Positions 1,117 to 6,166 of a DNA stretch of 6,166 nt are shown in pieces (the stretch's first letter is position 1; every line of letters starts with the position of its first letter). The translations under genes were made by a program, and so were the position numbers. This DNA is from Opitutia bacterium. Its GTDB lineage: Bacteria > Verrucomicrobiota > Verrucomicrobiae > Opitutales > UBA953. The notes below the pieces were generated by a model. It did no database searches and was not told the DNA's origin. It saw nothing but the letters and a program-made list of their open reading frames with translations. The stretch lies in the NCBI GenBank assembly GCA_947488485.1, contig CANKZO010000140.1:1-6166 (forward strand). Reading direction: 5' to 3'.

Positions 1117-1166
1117 CCATTTACCGCTCTTGCTTCGCAGCCGTTCACCATGCCAGCATGCCCCCT

Positions 1167-1952
1167 ATGAATTTAGGAGTCTGGACCCCTCATCACACCC
1201 AACGGGTGATCGAGGGTGGGCATGTGCTCATCTCGGGCGCTCCGGGTTCAGGTAAATCCCATCTCCTGCGCGAGGCTATCGTCCCGGGACTCGTCGCTGC
1301 CGGCGCCCAGGTTCTCGTCATCGACTATGCCGACGTCATCGGCGCCAAGATCAAAGGCCTCCGTCGCGAGGTCTATGGCGAAGAGACCTTTGGTATCTCC
1401 AGTCCCAACGCCGCCTCGCCGGCCCCGGATCTCCTCGGTTCGTCCGCCATCGCCACGCTCGCCTGCGAGCGTGCCGGACGTGATGCCATGGCCGATCTCC
1501 TCATGCGCTCGTTGTACGTCGAGCTCATCAAGAACCCGCCTAGCCGTGCCGCCCGACGTTTCCTCGTCGTCGACATCTCGCACCAGTCCTCGGCGCTCTC
1601 CACCTTCGGTCCGCTCCTGCGCGAAGCCGTCAAGAACGGCTTCACCCTCATCGTCACCTGCCAGTCGCCCAGCGCGCTCGACGACGATCTCTTCGCGCTG
1701 TTCAGCACCCACGTGTGCTTTTACCACTTCTTCAAACGTTGCCTCAAGATCATGTCGCAAGCGCTGCTCTCGACTGATCCGTCGCGTCAGATCTCCGGCG
1801 ACCGACCCATGCCGCTCAATCATTTCGGCCAGCCCCTCGCCACGCCCGCCAGCCAGCTCGGCACTGATCTCAGCCGCCTCAAAGTCGGCGAATGCCTCCT
1901 CGGTCTGCCCGGAGCCCAGCTCGAAAAATTGAAGCTGAATCCTTGGGGCTGA
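1167..1952 (+). CDS. Small orphan P-loop ATPase (HerA/VirB4/FtsK-like fold, inferred)
   Basis: A 261-residue protein built almost only of a P-loop NTPase core. Walker A is GAPGSGKS (24-31), directly after strand HVLIS. A second strand is QVLVIDYAD (48-56). Walker B is RRFLVVD (130-136) followed by ISHQ, so the catalytic Glu usually next to the Walker B Asp is absent. FTLIVTCQSPS (159-169) looks like the sensor strand with Gln found in VirB4/HerA-type ATPases ('TQ' motif). The C-terminus has GQPLATPASQLG and KVGECLLGLPG. It lacks the large N-terminal domain of conjugative ATPases and has no partner genes here, so its task is unknown. ATG at 1167 was chosen because the upstream ATGs (1150, 1158) lie in repeat-derived sequence; 1158 is in frame and adds three residues. 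No Shine-Dalgarno is visible. A hairpin repeat starts on the base after the stop. Other ASCE ATPase families remain possible. Confidence 0.82.
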   Translation: MNLGVWTPHHTQRVIEGGHVLISGAPGSGKSHLLREAIVPGLVAAGAQVLVIDYADVIGAKIKGLRREVYGEETFGISSPNAASPAPDLLGSSAIATLACERAGRDAMADLLMRSLYVELIKNPPSRAARRFLVVDISHQSSALSTFGPLLREAVKNGFTLIVTCQSPSALDDDLFALFSTHVCFYHFFKRCLKIMSQALLSTDPSRQISGDRPMPLNHFGQPLATPASQLGTDLSRLKVGECLLGLPGAQLEKLKLNPWG

Positions 1953-2106: not shown

Positions 2107-2619
2107 CTATTTGAAACCTATTTTTCGGCGCCTACGTTTTCCGTCTGCTGCGCTGAGTGATTTCAGTGTGCCGACGACGGCGTCGATGACTTGATCGTGG
2201 TTATCTAGCCTGGCGTGGGCTTCGCGCACGCTATCTTCGATGTTGGGTAGGCTGAGTTTCAGGCCGCTTATCGCGACGAATACTCTGACGACCATGATTC
2301 CCATCCTGATGGCAAGATCGCTGTTGAGGACATTCGCTGCCTGGATGACACCATGTTCCGTGAACGCCCAAGGGAGGTATCGGTCACCTCCGCGTCCATT
2401 TGAGGTCGCAATTTGCGACCTCAAAGAATTCAGCTCTCCCAATGTTAAACGAAAGGCGAAGTCCTCCGGAAATCTGTCAAGATTTCGCTTAATCTGTTCG
2501 TTGAGGCGCTTGGTGCTTACTCCGTAGAGGCGGGCGAGTTCCGAGGCCAAGATGACCCTGCGCCCCCTTAATTCAATAATCAGGGATGCAACTTTCTCAG
2601 CGGAAGAAGGGGTCGTCAT
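2107..2619 (-). CDS. ORF6N-domain DNA-binding-type protein
   Basis: A 170-residue protein. Residues about 15-117 form an ORF6N domain: a helix-turn-helix-like N-terminal part (LRGRRVILASELARLYGVS, then TKRLNEQIKRN), the family signature RFPEDFAFRLT, then RYLPWAFTEHGVIQAANVLNS and a helix with RMGIMVVRVFV. The rest is a predicted helix (HARLDNHDQVIDAVVGTLKSL) and a basic tail, RRRRKIGFK, typical of chromosomal ORF6N proteins. The domain was first described in phage proteins and is thought to bind DNA; no target is known here. The length is normal for the family, so the gene looks intact. The start is ATG at 2619 with a weak TCAGG just upstream. It has no convincing operon partners and its spacer is AT-rich. 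It could be a phage-derived or defence-associated regulator, but nothing in the window shows that. Confidence 0.9.
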   Translation of the reverse strand: MTTPSSAEKVASLIIELRGRRVILASELARLYGVSTKRLNEQIKRNLDRFPEDFAFRLTLGELNSLRSQIATSNGRGGDRYLPWAFTEHGVIQAANVLNSDLAIRMGIMVVRVFVAISGLKLSLPNIEDSVREAHARLDNHDQVIDAVVGTLKSLSAADGKRRRRKIGFK

Positions 2620-3355: not shown

Positions 3356-3385
3356 GGGTAGGGTCGGGACCGCGTCACGACATAG
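3356..3385. repeat. REP-like hairpin repeat, type A, copy 3
   Basis: Same 30 bp as copy 1, including the GGG start and CATAG end. Like copy 1 it is followed after a short spacer (TAACTCATTCTCAGG) by the large CAGGT/ACCTG palindrome, so hairpin and palindrome behave as one composite unit. Confidence 0.85.
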
Positions 3386-3402
3386 CTGTAGCTAACTCAT
3401 TC

Positions 3403-3659: not shown

Positions 3660-3693
3660 CGTTTTAGCGCCGCCTTCGCCGGCTGCTAAAACG
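3660..3693 (-). terminator. Hairpin overlapping the stop codon of the unknown-family gene
   Basis: CGTTTTAGC (3660-3668) pairs perfectly with GCTAAAACG (3685-3693). Inside, GCCG (3669-3672) pairs with CGGC (3680-3683), giving 13 bp with one bulged base and a 7-nt loop. The minus-strand stop codon TAG (3686-3688) lies within the stem. No T-run follows, so factor-independent termination is uncertain; 3'-end protection of the mRNA is equally possible. The paralogous gene has a similar hairpin at its stop (5848-5876). Confidence 0.5.
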
Positions 3694-4447
3694 CCCTCTC
3701 CTCCACCCACCCCACCACCACCTTGAACCCCGTCAACTTAGCGAAATGCAGGGTCAGGATGAAGTCATGCTTCACGGAGATCGCCACCATCCGATGGGGC
3801 AGGGCGAGTTTCTTACCCTGGTACAGGCAGATCTTAGGGCAGGCATACAGCTGATTGGCCTCCTTGTAGGCTTTCTGGACGCGGACATCTAGGTTGCTGT
3901 GCAAGGCGCCGAGCCGGGGGACCATGCCGAGGAACTCCAGCTTACTGCGGGCTTCCCGATAATCGTCAAAGTTCAGGTCATGCGCTTCCTCGATGACCGC
4001 GTCGGTGATAATCACGTGGTTCCTGACGAGGGACGCGCCCCGGATCGTCTCAAAGAAGTAGGCCATCCCGTGAGGGCGCTTTTTACCCTTGATCATGCGC
4101 GGGGGCTTGGGCGTCAGGTCCTTTCCGTAGGCCGCCTCGATCTCCTTGGCCAGGAGCTCATCGCCCGCCCGGTGCTCGACCGTCAGCTCATGCTTGCCGC
4201 GCAGCACCGTGCGGTGGCGGACGATGATATCCCCGTATTGGTTTAGCCCACCGATCCGGGAGCCGATGTCGAATTCCCCGTTGATCCAGGACTCATTGAA
4301 GGCCGGGGAGGTCTCCACCAGCTTCAGCAGCGCCCGCTTCACCTTCTGGGCGGTCAATTTACAATCATAGGCGCGAATCTGGAGCTTCGTCGGAGGATTT
4401 GAGGTCGGCGGTTGCATCATTGCCCGCCGATTTGCCCACCATCCCAT
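3686..4447 (-). CDS. Protein of unrecognised family (paralogue of the gene at 5870)
   Basis: I do not recognise this family. The protein (253 aa from ATG 4447) is basic and soluble-looking, with no membrane helix or signal peptide. The N-terminal half has KLQIRAYDCKLTAQKVKRAL, an acidic GEFDIGSRIGG, and a basic KPPRMIKGKKRPHG; the second half has HDLNFDDYREARSKLEFLG, PKICLYQGKKLALP and VVVGWVEERAF at the very end. The last 98 residues align without gaps to the partial gene at 5870-6166 with 39 identities by hand count; the best conserved parts are HDL.F.DYRE, PK.CLY.GKKL and V.VG.VEE..F. Start: ATG 4447 and ATG 4420 (MMQPPTSNPP, 244 aa) are both plausible and neither has a clear Shine-Dalgarno; an open frame up to 4588 crosses two REP hairpins and is unlikely. 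It lies just 5' (plus coordinates) of the DUF3800 cassette on the same strand. DNA or RNA binding would suit the basic segments but is only a guess. Confidence 0.8.
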   Translation of the reverse strand: MGWWANRRAMMQPPTSNPPTKLQIRAYDCKLTAQKVKRALLKLVETSPAFNESWINGEFDIGSRIGGLNQYGDIIVRHRTVLRGKHELTVEHRAGDELLAKEIEAAYGKDLTPKPPRMIKGKKRPHGMAYFFETIRGASLVRNHVIITDAVIEEAHDLNFDDYREARSKLEFLGMVPRLGALHSNLDVRVQKAYKEANQLYACPKICLYQGKKLALPHRMVAISVKHDFILTLHFAKLTGFKVVVGWVEERAF

Positions 4448-4460
4448 GTTTGTCAAATGA

Positions 4461-4489
4461 GGTAGGGGCAGCACTGCGTGCTGCCCTAG
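4461..4489. repeat. REP-like hairpin repeat, type B, copy 2
   Basis: GGTAGGG head, GCAGCACTGCGTGCTGCCC, TAG tail. The stem is GCAGCAC/GTGCTGC around TGC, fully paired, whereas copy 1 has one mismatch. Both B copies are preceded by TGA and followed by TGTCTC within 3 bases, so the conserved unit is slightly longer than the hairpin. It lies 14 bp upstream of the start of the unknown-family gene. Confidence 0.8.
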
Positions 4490-4508
4490 CTGTCTCTCTG
4501 TGTTCCCA

Positions 4509-4550
4509 ACCGCTAACCGCCAACCGCTACCACCTCGCGGCTCCGTCGCG
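4509..4550. repeat. Heptamer repeat ACCGCYA x3 and GC hairpin
   Basis: ACCGCTA, ACCGCCA, ACCGCTA stand in tandem at 4509-4529. At 4536-4550, CGCGGC-TCC-GTCGCG forms a 6-bp hairpin with one G.T pair. A hairpin with the same TCC loop (GCGGC-TCC-GCCGC) is at 2991-3003. The block separates the B and A repeats. Confidence 0.6.
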
Positions 4551-4552
4551 CA

Positions 4553-4582
4553 GGGTAGGGTCGGGACCGCGTCACGACATAG
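4553..4582. repeat. REP-like hairpin repeat, type A, copy 4
   Basis: Same 30 bp as the other type A copies. The bases after its end (minus strand CGATGCACCTATGTC) partly match 5640-5653 (CGATACAGCTATGTC), the far edge of the other structured element, so the DUF3800 cassette seems to end in a REP or REP remnant on both sides. Confidence 0.85.
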
Positions 4583-4599
4583 GTGCATCGAGTTGCTCG

Positions 4600-4738
4600 G
4601 CCTGAGTACTTTCCTGGCTTGCCCACGTGCCTGCTGCTTGCTTTACTTTCTTTGTGGGTCGAAAGGCCTGCGGAAAAGGTTCCGCCCCGGTGACAAGTGA
4701 CCAAGGGTCTCTTCCGTCAGGATAGCCGGGGCGGTCAT
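4600..4738 (-). ncRNA. Candidate structured RNA flanking DUF3800, left copy
   Basis: Read on the minus strand, this begins 4 bases after the DUF3800 stop codon. The core (4734-4682) is CCGCCCCGG, bulge CTATCC, TGAC, bulge GG, AAGAGACC, loop CTT, GGTCACTT, GTCA, CCGGGGCGG: one long hairpin with two 5'-side bulges and a single A.A mismatch. Downstream, AACCTTTTCC, GGCCTTTCGACC and CAAGCC...AAAGT also match the right copy at similar spacing, so the element is about 140 nt. The stems differ from the right copy but still pair, while the bulges are identical. The strand is inferred from this bulge orientation. It would be in the 3' part of the DUF3800 transcript. I recall published structured RNA motifs named for DUF3800 but cannot say which class, if any, this is. 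Confidence 0.68.
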
Positions 4739-4742
4739 TTTC

Positions 4743-5357
4743 TCACATCTGTAAATCAACTGCGCGTCCGAGGATATCCATGGCCTGATGGTCGCCTTTG
4801 GTCAGTGACCGCCAGATTGCCCAACAGCAGTAATCAGCGATTTGCAGATCGAAGTTCGATTTGGAAGAGTGGTGGAGGAATGTGTGGGTGTCGCGTCCTA
4901 TCGAGCGCGCTGCTAACTCAGCGGCGATAGCCTTCTCTAGGCCGTGACGTTTCTTGTTGAGAGGAAGGGTATCACTGAAGACCCAGACTCTCTCGTTGCT
5001 CTGGCCAACGTGTCGTTCGACTAACGGGCCGACGAAGGCCGGATAGAAACGTTCGGGCGTCCTCAGTCGCTCATCGATATCTATTTTCAGAAGGGCGCGG
5101 GCCTTGACCGAGGCCGGGGAAAGCCAAGGCACGATTGTTTCCAGGAATCTTTTTCTCACTCGGCGATTGTCTTCGCTCGCATGAAAGTACTCCAAACCGA
5201 TGCCTTCCGCCAGTAGCTCATGTCTGAGTTGTGCCAGGTGAGCTATCCGCTGGTTGTCCCAAGGAATCTTAACGCAGGTCAGCACGAGCCATCGTGTGCC
5301 ATTCTGTCCGAAATCAAAGTTGCCTGCCTCGTCTAGGTAAAGGTGGGTGGATTCCAT
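4743..5357 (-). CDS. DUF3800 family protein
   Basis: A 204-residue protein with the DUF3800 signatures: LYLDEAGNF at the N-terminus (Asp 9, Glu 10), GLEYFHASED (54-63), VWVFSDT (124-130) and HHSSKSNFDLQIADY (162-176, with Ser 165, Lys 166, Asp 170, Gln 172, Asp 175). The spaced acidic residues fit an RNase H-like, metal-dependent fold, which I infer; no activity is established in what I know. The length is normal and all motifs are present, so the gene looks intact. Start: ATG 5357 puts LYLDEAG at the N-terminus as in most members; ATG 5384 (213 aa) is in frame and possible. A perfect TATAAT lies upstream (5411-5416). The gene stands alone between two inverted structured elements, the left one directly after the stop codon. 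Members of this family often occur in mobile or defence-rich regions (general knowledge); none of those partners is seen here. Confidence 0.9.
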   Translation of the reverse strand: MESTHLYLDEAGNFDFGQNGTRWLVLTCVKIPWDNQRIAHLAQLRHELLAEGIGLEYFHASEDNRRVRKRFLETIVPWLSPASVKARALLKIDIDERLRTPERFYPAFVGPLVERHVGQSNERVWVFSDTLPLNKKRHGLEKAIAAELAARSIGRDTHTFLHHSSKSNFDLQIADYCCWAIWRSLTKGDHQAMDILGRAVDLQM

Positions 5358-5410
5358 CCTGCCTATCCCAGTTCCCGCACGCATCTCTGCGCAATCCCTG
5401 GGGTCTAGGC

Positions 5411-5439
5411 ATTATAGCTAGGGTATATCCGCTTCTTCA
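5411..5439 (-). promoter_or_regulatory. Likely promoter of the DUF3800 gene
   Basis: On the minus strand, a perfect -10 box TATAAT (5416-5411) is preceded after 17 bp by TGAAGA (5439-5434), a weak -35 (3 of 6). Transcription would start near 5404, about 20 nt before ATG 5384 or about 47 nt before ATG 5357. The -35 overlaps the left edge of the hairpin at 5437-5466. Confidence 0.5.
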
Positions 5440-5466
5440 CCGCAAGGCGGCGCCACCTTGCGGTGA
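5437..5466. other. Perfect 11-bp inverted repeat between DUF3800 promoter and right RNA element
   Basis: TCACCGCAAGG (5437-5447) and CCTTGCGGTGA (5456-5466) pair perfectly around CGGCGCCA. It lies between the minus-strand promoter and the plus-strand structured element. It could be a transcript hairpin, an operator, or a further stem of the right RNA. There is no counterpart at the left copy, where the gene itself abuts the element. Confidence 0.6.
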
Positions 5467-5475
5467 TCGGCGAAA

Positions 5476-5625
5476 GTTGACCTCCTCGGCTATCCTGACG
5501 GAAGAGCTCCCGAGAGCTCTTGTCACCGAGGAGGGACCTTTCTCATCGGCCTCTCGACCGATGACTAAAGAGTGTCCGATATCCGCTTACACTCAAGCCG
5601 TAAAAGTCCCTAGGACAGCACGTGG
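5476..5625 (+). ncRNA. Candidate structured RNA flanking DUF3800, right copy
   Basis: Core 5481-5534 on the plus strand: CCTCCTCGG, bulge CTATCC, TGAC, bulge GG, AAGAGCTC, loop CCGA, GAGCTCTT, GTCA, CCGAGGAGG. All 21 base pairs are Watson-Crick. It is followed by GGACCTTTCTC, a second hairpin ATCGG-CCTCTCGA-CCGAT (5545-5562) whose loop is conserved in the left copy, a third possible stem AGTGT/ACACT, and CAAGCC...AAAGT (5594-5606). Relative to the left copy the outer stem changes CCGCCCCGG to CCTCCTCGG with matching changes on the other strand, and the upper stem is rewritten with pairing kept. It is oriented away from the DUF3800 gene. The far end (5640-5653) resembles half of a type A REP. 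No promoter is clear. It may be one of the DUF3800-associated RNA motifs. Confidence 0.68.
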
Positions 5626-5794: not shown

Positions 5795-5811
5795 GGTTTC
5801 TTTGCCTCCCT

Positions 5812-5843
5812 TGCCCACGTGTCAACTTGTCAACCGGTCAACT
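5812..5843. repeat. TGTCAACN octamer array
   Basis: Four contiguous octamers: TGCCCACG, TGTCAACT, TGTCAACC, GGTCAACT. It follows TTTGCCTCCCT as at 3004-3014. Here the large palindrome and pyrimidine block that lie between composite repeat and octamers at the second mosaic are absent. Confidence 0.75.
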
Positions 5844-5847
5844 AGTG

Positions 5848-5876
5848 GTTCTTCGGCGCTTCCAGCGCCTCAGAAC
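5848..5876 (-). terminator. Hairpin overlapping the stop codon of the paralogue
   Basis: GTTCT (5848-5852) pairs with AGAAC (5872-5876), and GGCGC (5855-5859) pairs with GCGCC (5865-5869), with a TC/TC internal loop and a TTCCA loop. The minus-strand stop TGA (5872-5870) lies in the structure, as at 3660-3693. No T-run follows, so this is only a possible terminator. Confidence 0.4.
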
Positions 5877-6166
5877 GGCGTCTCCTCCACAAACCCCACC
5901 AAGATCTTCCCCTTCGGCAGGCGGGTGAAGTGCATCATCAGATGCGGGCCGTCCATATCCGGCTTCACCACGATCTGATTCCGCAGGAAGAGCTTCTTGC
6001 CCTCGTACAGGCAGACCTTCGGGTCTGGGTGCTTGATGTTCGCCAGGTGATACTGCGTCTGGGTGTGCCTGTCTTGATCATCGTAGGTGCGCTTGATCGT
6101 CCGGAGCTTGGCCAGGAAATCCAGCGCCTTGCGGACTTCGCGGTAATCCTCGAAGCGCAGGTCATG
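5870..6166 (-). CDS. C-terminal part of an unrecognised-family protein (paralogue of the gene at 3686)
   Basis: The minus strand from the window edge reads 98 residues to TGA at 5870-5872; the start lies beyond 6166. It opens with HDLRFEDYREVRKALDFLAK and contains PKVCLYEGKKLFLR, HLMMHFTRLPKG and the terminal KILVGFVEETPF. These match, at equal length and without gaps, the last 98 residues of the gene at 3686-4447 (39 identities by hand). No start codon is needed in the window because the gene is cut, which makes it easy to miss. Divergence is protein-like: the hydrophobic pattern and the motif PK.CLY.GKKL are kept while charged positions vary. Function unknown. Together with its paralogue it brackets the DUF3800 cassette, all three genes on the minus strand. 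Confidence 0.85.
   Translation of the reverse strand, partial: HDLRFEDYREVRKALDFLAKLRTIKRTYDDQDRHTQTQYHLANIKHPDPKVCLYEGKKLFLRNQIVVKPDMDGPHLMMHFTRLPKGKILVGFVEETPF

Follow-up and report, generated by a model that had tools for sequence, protein, structure and literature searches.

DUF3800 RNAs are structured RNAs that were reportedly found through comparative genomics, and we know of no function for them. One of their families, DUF3800-IX (RF02968), is typed as a small RNA (sRNA) in Rfam. No paper titled on this RNA family was found in the literature searched, most subscription papers lying outside the search, and those consulted that mention DUF3800 or its Rfam RNAs give no function for them in the parts available. 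We analysed a 6,166-nt stretch of contig CANKZO010000140.1 from an Opitutia bacterium (GCA_947488485.1), referred to here as the window. Two structured RNA copies flank a DUF3800 gene in this window and are mutually inverted, the left copy lying after the stop codon of the gene and the right copy upstream of it. Comparison with related loci (L numbers; genomes have G numbers) supports, at the level of sequence, an RNA gene with a definite strand and structure that is coupled to this subfamily of DUF3800 genes, as well as the replacement of one such unit by another at this site.

The type III toxin-antitoxin system ToxIN is neutralised by phage PhiTE with RNA repeats that mimic ToxI (PMC3475682). 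The DUF3800 pair would share the working principle of ToxIN if its RNA inhibits the nuclease. Unlike in ToxIN, which has tandem repeats upstream in one operon, the RNA here is mostly single-copy and convergent downstream. The best folds for the DUF3800 protein are RNase HII and PIWI, and the ToxN fold is not among the matches listed, which by itself rules nothing out. AbiF is a toxic Abi protein, and the structured RNA RCd22 neutralises this toxin in cis and in trans (PMC12373285). An abiF-type RNA is found near a DUF3800-type RNA in the phage contig L108. AbiF itself is an Abi_2 family protein with a different RNA. An RNase H fold is predicted for one CRISPR-linked DUF3800 protein (PMC10910872). 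The DUF3800 proteins of retron and CRISPR loci belong to the same Pfam family as the window protein, whereas no reverse transcriptase or Cas gene was found among the seven window frames scanned.

Fold, strand and family of the RNA

The alignment comprised the two window copies and 25 elements that immediately follow related DUF3800 genes. Of 48 loci collected, 27 matched a regular expression for the AAAGGU type; the near-duplicates L001 and L020 were excluded. The fold on the RNA strand is a three-way junction with stems P1 (9 bp), P2 (7 bp), and P3 (3–5 bp), and the conserved features are the junction bases YRAYA and UAG and the AAG stem base. Standard pairs occupied 98.9% of the 536 pair cells of the 27 aligned elements, and 15 of the 21 pairs showed two-sided changes. 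The covariation score was 0.437, against at most 0.101 with the partners slid, a control that leans toward the fold because the structure was drawn from the same sequences. RNAalifold recovered, unaided, P1, P2, and three P3 pairs, plus an extra U-G pair ending P1. The covarying structured RNA proposed in the preliminary description was thus borne out, and further homologues with compensatory changes were found across loci titled from many phyla and in three phyla searched RNA-first. The inner TGAC/GTCA helix with a GG bulge was not supported, as 56.5% of the cells paired compared with 54.2% in shuffles; the CC...GG bases pair instead as a third helix (TCC-TGAC-GGA). A guide RNA was considered and rejected, there being no variable stretch besides the hairpin loops.

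The left RNA, the partner of the present gene, is located at 4675..4742 on the plus strand (model match 4675-4745, 85.7 bits). It comprises the leader AAAGGU, P1 (4682-4690/4726-4734), P2, P3, the UAG junction, and a U-run just before the stop codon of the gene. The right RNA, probably the leftover of a lost DUF3800' unit, is located at 5470..5541 on the minus strand with P1 at 5526-5534/5481-5489 (79.6 bits). Both scores come from R1, an RNA model built from the family, and are far beyond chance, though both copies were among its training sequences. The two inverted hairpin copies and their outer 9-bp stems are as first described; the left upper stem contains one mismatch (a U-U cell). The supposed CCTYTCGA loop is actually the complementary-strand sequence of a distinct 5′ hairpin with a GNRA cap, present in the Opitutae copies. 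By local folding, this hairpin lies at 4654..4671 on the plus strand in the left RNA (GUGGGUC GAAA GGCCUGC) and at 5544..5563 on the minus strand in the right RNA (CAUCGGUC GAGA GGCCGAUG), with base changes on both stem sides between the copies. The RNA length is approximately 65 nt, and approximately 90 nt in Opitutae when the 5′ hairpin is counted. The remaining Rfam matches of the window (mir-607, mraW, and others) were below cut-off, overlapped neither RNA element, and were set aside.

The R1 matches and a promoter scan place the RNA on the strand opposite to that assumed at first (minus for the right element, plus for the left). A −35/−10 scan covered 33 of 34 elements, one having too little flank. 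On the RNA strand, the best scores averaged 5.35. The opposite strand averaged 0.91, as did shuffled sequences, none of the 200 shuffles reaching the RNA-strand value. The signals upstream of the RNA appear promoter-like and are strong as a set. A promoter-like TTGCCC-N17-TTTACT was seen by eye at 4619..4647 (plus strand) before the left RNA, outside the scored range, and L002 has similar boxes at the same spacing (by eye). The RNA terminates with a stem of its own, and a U-run often accompanies it. The 12 nt after the last stem were richer in T on the RNA strand (5.97 against 4.29; 34 elements; the tails of L002 and L084 were clipped a few bases early).

DUF3800-IX was the only DUF3800 model among the Rfam matches listed (21.0 bits for the right copy, same strand, cut-off 36.8), and the left copy gave no DUF3800-IX match at E up to 5. 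The best relatives among ten loci scanned were L007 (31.9 bits) and L045 (30.9 bits). None of 39 loci reached a DUF3800 Rfam family at gathering level, and neither nine further loci (E up to 1) nor the phage loci gave any DUF3800 Rfam match. The window family resembles DUF3800-IX in its outer stem enclosing two hairpins in the same order, in its strand, and in the UAG before the closing stem. It differs in its AAAGGU leader, YRAYA junction, and AAG-based second stem, which are absent from the IX consensus. The window RNA is, as judged from its sequence, a DUF3800-type RNA of the general kind of covarying structures next to DUF3800 genes. It lies outside DUF3800-IX by Rfam's rule because no tested element reaches the gathering score. 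The suggestion that the class may already be known among the DUF3800 motifs is therefore right as to a covarying RNA beside a DUF3800 gene, while the Rfam covariance model stays below its cut-off (21.0 of 36.8).

The DUF3800 protein and its coupling to the RNA

The DUF3800 gene (PF12686, E = 4.4e-11) of the present unit is located at 4743..5384 on the minus strand. The inner ATG at about 5357 (MESTHLYLDEAGNFDF) is the more likely start, because the L002 protein begins at the inner Met. The AlphaFold2 model of the protein had a predicted local distance difference test score (pLDDT) of 90.9 and an RNase HII-like fold, with RNase HII and PIWI as the top structural matches. By this predicted fold, the protein would belong with the RNase HII-like nucleases. 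Residues D18, E19, and D184 were invariant across 67 sequences, as read from the sequence alignment without superposition. No solved structure of a sequence relative was found, the two matches having E-values of 0.12 and 0.68 and unrelated names, and NCBIfam models gave no match to the gene. The PADLOC model DUF3800_VII, which we take to be linked to type VII retrons, matched the gene at E = 1.6e-5.

An adjoining R1 match was found at all 41 loci with a stop-free DUF3800 frame, 25 of which were in training; the weakest was L027 (17.8 bits, E = 0.032). Four of the 48 loci had no R1 match, two with broken genes (L029, L041) and two at contig ends (L032, L043). L001, L047, and L048 carry a match and sat outside the 41-locus alignment, being a near-twin of the window, a duplicate of L044, and a frame with a stop, respectively. 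The RNA is convergent at the 3′-end of the DUF3800 gene in 38 of the 41 loci, reading toward the gene, and overlaps its stop codon in several. In L022, L036, and L037, all outside training, it lies upstream and is co-directional. RNA and protein distances were correlated (r = 0.56 for 42 pairs, 0.68 for 30 full-length pairs; 0 of 5000 permutations each), partly because of shared ancestry. The number of matches per genome was one in 31 of the 40 genomes holding the loci, two or three in six, and none at threshold in three. Tandem second RNA copies were seen downstream of the gene in L003 (4902-4982) and L034 (4821-4874), and a second copy lies beside a second, shorter DUF3800 frame in L033 (1978-2054). 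A search with the L023 RNA gave no match in E. coli genomes.

The RNA-first search found the RNA in eight of 387 Verrucomicrobiota genomes (this and the other two phylum names were inferred from L001, L003, and L015). The protein search of the same genomes gave 15 matches at E = 1e-10 or better, of which six were close (E < 1e-70). All six genomes with a close protein carry the RNA, the protein of G362 having internal stops. When the previously known G001 and G008 are excluded, the RNA was beside the protein in 4/4 and the protein was with the RNA in 4/6. Ten distant DUF3800 loci (L095-L104; E = 4.9e-12 to 7.7e-21; one in G008) gave no R1 match within the stretches examined, so the RNA is tied to this DUF3800 subfamily as far as seen. 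Ten further genomes of 398 Pseudomonadota and five of 396 Actinomycetota carried the RNA.

The three phyla together yielded 18 new strong RNA matches (> 60 bits), 14 of them beside a gene of the subfamily. The gene is stop-free in 11 cases (L079, L080, L083, L118, L120, L122, L124-L126, L134, and L136), that of L083 running into a contig end. It is broken in three, with stops in L084 and with the N-terminal part including the DE motif gone in L119 and L123. At L082, the DUF3800 protein is from a different subfamily and lies across the RNA from the usual side (Pfam E = 1.1e-7). No DUF3800 was found at L081, L121, and L135, the contig of the last ending 218 nt away on the expected side, and no DUF3800 gene lay beside the weak matches (32–37 bits) of L127, L137, and L138. 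Matches outside training were also found on the Phaeobacter conjugative plasmid pP14_b (70.9 bits), the Ruegeria TM1040 megaplasmid (61.2 bits), and Gordonia phage Kenna (64.2 bits), with the RNA at the 3′-end of a DUF3800 gene in each.

In some phages, the RNA stands without the gene. Scanning viral contigs with a sequence pattern turned up 12 stretches, each matched by R1, and two of these were already known DUF3800 contigs. The other ten gave no PF12686 match, although the contigs are fragmentary and absence is no proof. Sequence searches found one copy in Mycobacterium phage Nebkiss (56.0 bits) and two in Corynebacterium phage phi16 (63.5 and 52.6 bits), and PF12686 had no match in the whole records of both. 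A search with the L005 RNA gave no match in phages. The phi16 copies alternate with tRNAs, and each P1 ends 5 nt before a tRNA gene, so that RNase P could set the RNA 3′-end. In Nebkiss, the RNA is followed by two tRNAs. On the contigs, copies are located in the terminase-portal gap (L105), between head genes (L108), before the portal gene (L115), and beside the terminase gene (L107). An upstream non-coding stretch, TATCAACCGCC ... GCAGAGTTTAAC, is common to L105 (5680-5840) and L115 (3900-4030) by eye and may be another structured RNA.

The junction bases UAG, GA.A, and AAGA are kept in 11/11 phage copies counted; L114, which repeats the L111 RNA, and L110, cut by a contig end, were dropped. 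The 12 nt after P1 contained 3.6 T in the phage copies and 5.9 T in 32 gene-linked copies (p = 0.003). This contrast is weakened by the T-rich tails of L106 and L112, which may be bacterial, by the phi16 copies (5 T), and by three gene-linked copies that are equally T-poor. L108 also contains an abiF-type RNA (35.9 bits against a cut-off of 37, E = 0.007), 80 nt upstream of the DUF3800-type RNA and in the same orientation; the abiF-type core is at 6793-6829 (minus strand) in the head-gene region. The abiF-type core pattern was in none of the other 137 loci. The Nebkiss RNA is 91.8% identical to the Kenna RNA. By their names, proteins related to the Kenna DUF3800 come from species of Mycobacterium, Mycolicibacterium, and Corynebacterium, which include the host genera of Nebkiss and phi16. 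C. glutamicum was among three genomes with a PF12686 signal, two of the three being over the cut-off.

History of the site and its surroundings

The window is 98.5% identical over 1170 nt to L001, a metagenome-assembled genome (MAG) contig labelled uncultured Opitutae. The right RNA is close to the RNAs of L018-L021 (distances of 0.03 to 0.06) and farther from the left RNA (0.25). L002 has both the nearest RNA to the left copy and the nearest protein to the window DUF3800. L018-L021 encode the DUF3800' protein, approximately 32% identical to that of the window. L021 shares its flanks with the window (3668-4437 and 5810-6166) and carries DUF3800' on the plus strand. Homology to L021 begins at window 5454, and 5454..5480 (plus strand) holds the last eight codons and stop of the lost DUF3800' gene (HLAVIGES; DUF3800' of L021 ends HLAVIGEG). 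The simplest reading of these sequences is that one DUF3800-plus-RNA unit was replaced by another in opposite orientation while the old RNA remained. The right RNA would have outlived its own gene, and the left RNA would belong to the present gene. The two copies are thus probably not the equal partners of one gene that they were initially taken for. The right one comes from a different DUF3800 subfamily and carries the tail of its replaced gene, so the inverted symmetry appears to be an accident of replacement.

A 15-bp near-perfect palindrome lies beside the replacement junction (5437-5466). By eye, it is imperfect in L001, which looks as though one arm had served as template for the other (a quasi-palindrome templated change). 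The DUF3800 unit is flanked by two related genes without a Pfam match (3686-4588 and 5870-6166, minus strand), with 75–78% DNA identity in blocks, in the flanks common to the window and L021. In L021, a GOLLD RNA (862-1586, 179.8 bits) followed by a tRNA lies approximately 2.4–2.7 kb from the DUF3800' gene.

The neighbour survey scanned 110 of 255 frames around 44 loci, with 25 families shown per batch. Type I restriction subunits were the commonest recognisable neighbours among the families shown. HsdR is downstream at six of the 44 loci, and two others have an HsdS relative in front. In phage Kenna, the DUF3800 gene follows the immunity repressor, and in Sphingomonas Leaf10 (L044), it follows an S24-type protein. 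The RNA of L081 (1-3071), without a DUF3800 found, lies between OLD-type ATPase-nuclease-like and HsdR-like frames (by eye). Elsewhere in the window, an ORF6N-domain protein (2107-2619, minus strand) matched the PADLOC candidate defence family PDC-S05 (E = 2.8e-44), and a P-loop ATPase frame (1164-1949, plus strand) matched PADLOC mad8 (E = 9.4e-15). A 42-nt interspersed repeat, GGGTAGGGTCGGGACCGCGTCACGACATAG, occurs in six copies (62–100% alike) outside the main window genes, at 796-837, 1952-2031, 3356-3397, 4460-4501, and 4553-4594. Other long quasi-palindromic repeats are built from ACCCG/CAGGT units.

Possible role of the DUF3800-RNA pair

On balance, we think it probable that the pair is a two-part unit, in which a DUF3800 protein of RNase HII-like fold would be held in check by its own small RNA, as a phage-defence or prophage-exclusion module. 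The RNA would bind DUF3800 by way of its conserved YRAYA and UAG junction bases and its AAG stem base. The bound RNA would restrain the nuclease as an RNA antitoxin does, and the module would be released on infection. The RNA is kept beside broken genes and no stop-free gene examined lacked it, so restraint fits somewhat better than activation. The mimicry of ToxI by PhiTE and the neutralisation of AbiF by RCd22 are precedents, by analogy, for decoy and restraint.

Several observations weigh against this restraint. The promoter is individually clear (p < 0.05) in only 16/33 elements, and the Opitutae copies, including both window copies, score at background within the scanned promoter range; their extra GNRA 5′ hairpin would shift the start outward, beyond that range. 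Some gene-linked copies are T-poor after the stem (Kenna 4, pP14_b 4, and TM1040 3 T in 12 nt). The aspartate near residue 137 is missing in several members (e.g., L022, L025, L028, L036, L039, and L044), so a complete catalytic acid set is not established for DUF3800. Among the restriction loci, L003, L005, L042, and L046 are close relatives and hence not independent, many loci have no defence neighbours, and the scanned frames include ordinary metabolic genes. Where the gene is broken, the RNA next to it could simply reflect ongoing decay, and an RNA acting as an activating cofactor would give the same gene-RNA coupling.

Such a cofactor or scaffold, with DUF3800 working only as an RNA-protein complex (cf. 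TnpB, Cas12, Argonaute-like) and the RNA possibly choosing the target, seems to us rather unlikely. The RNA has defined ends with no variable guide stretch outside its hairpin loops and persists beside broken genes in bacteria, and a phage keeping the RNA alone would have little visible use for it if it activates a host nuclease. The convergent position at the gene end, the overlap with the stop codon in several loci, and an outer stem that can act as a terminator would all suit antisense or 3′-end regulation of the DUF3800 mRNA, or a shared transcription terminator and nothing more. This explanation is improbable given the three loci with an upstream, co-directional RNA, the conserved junction bases, which are superfluous for a terminator, and the phage copies in genomes without the gene. 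It is more improbable still that the pair is a mobile element whose RNA hairpins are inverted-repeat ends recognised by a DUF3800 recombinase. The window gene is indeed flanked by two inverted copies, and one unit replaced another at the same site. However, L002 and most relatives are single-copy (31/40 genomes with one match), and the right copy is of a different subfamily and carries its own gene's tail. An inverted-repeat transposon was accordingly dropped.

Returning to restraint by the RNA, an RNA that renders the protein harmless would best explain the phage copies. It is quite possible, though we suggest it tentatively, that the free-standing copies are decoys that keep or put a host DUF3800 nuclease in the restrained state. 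The pair would then be a new defence system under RNA restraint, which phages counter by RNA mimicry. The phage copies mostly have no T-rich tail. Their sites, among late genes or flanked by tRNAs, could allow release by processing, and they may sometimes be combined with mimics of further defence RNAs such as abiF. A somewhat more doubtful alternative is that they have their own phage job, such as tRNA-cluster processing or packaging, or are leftovers of lost DUF3800 units. Their location within tRNA arrays (phi16, Nebkiss) or next to genes for terminase, portal, and head proteins would agree with it, and no host is known for the metagenomic contigs. The junction bases are nevertheless kept in all the copies counted despite differing genome positions, and one phage has two copies and another an adjacent abiF-type RNA.

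These results give one DUF3800 RNA family a strand, ends, a fold, a partner of nuclease fold, and, in some loci, a restriction or prophage setting. The stand-alone copies in isolated phages, which are amenable to laboratory growth, were unexpected, and searches for phage RNA decoys, anti-defence, and tRNA arrays gave no paper on this system by title or abstract start. These phage copies suggest an RNA switch in the arms race between phages and bacteria. If the decoy reading is true, orphan structured RNAs in phage tRNA clusters would be a route to defence systems controlled by RNA, since every decoy indicates what it targets.
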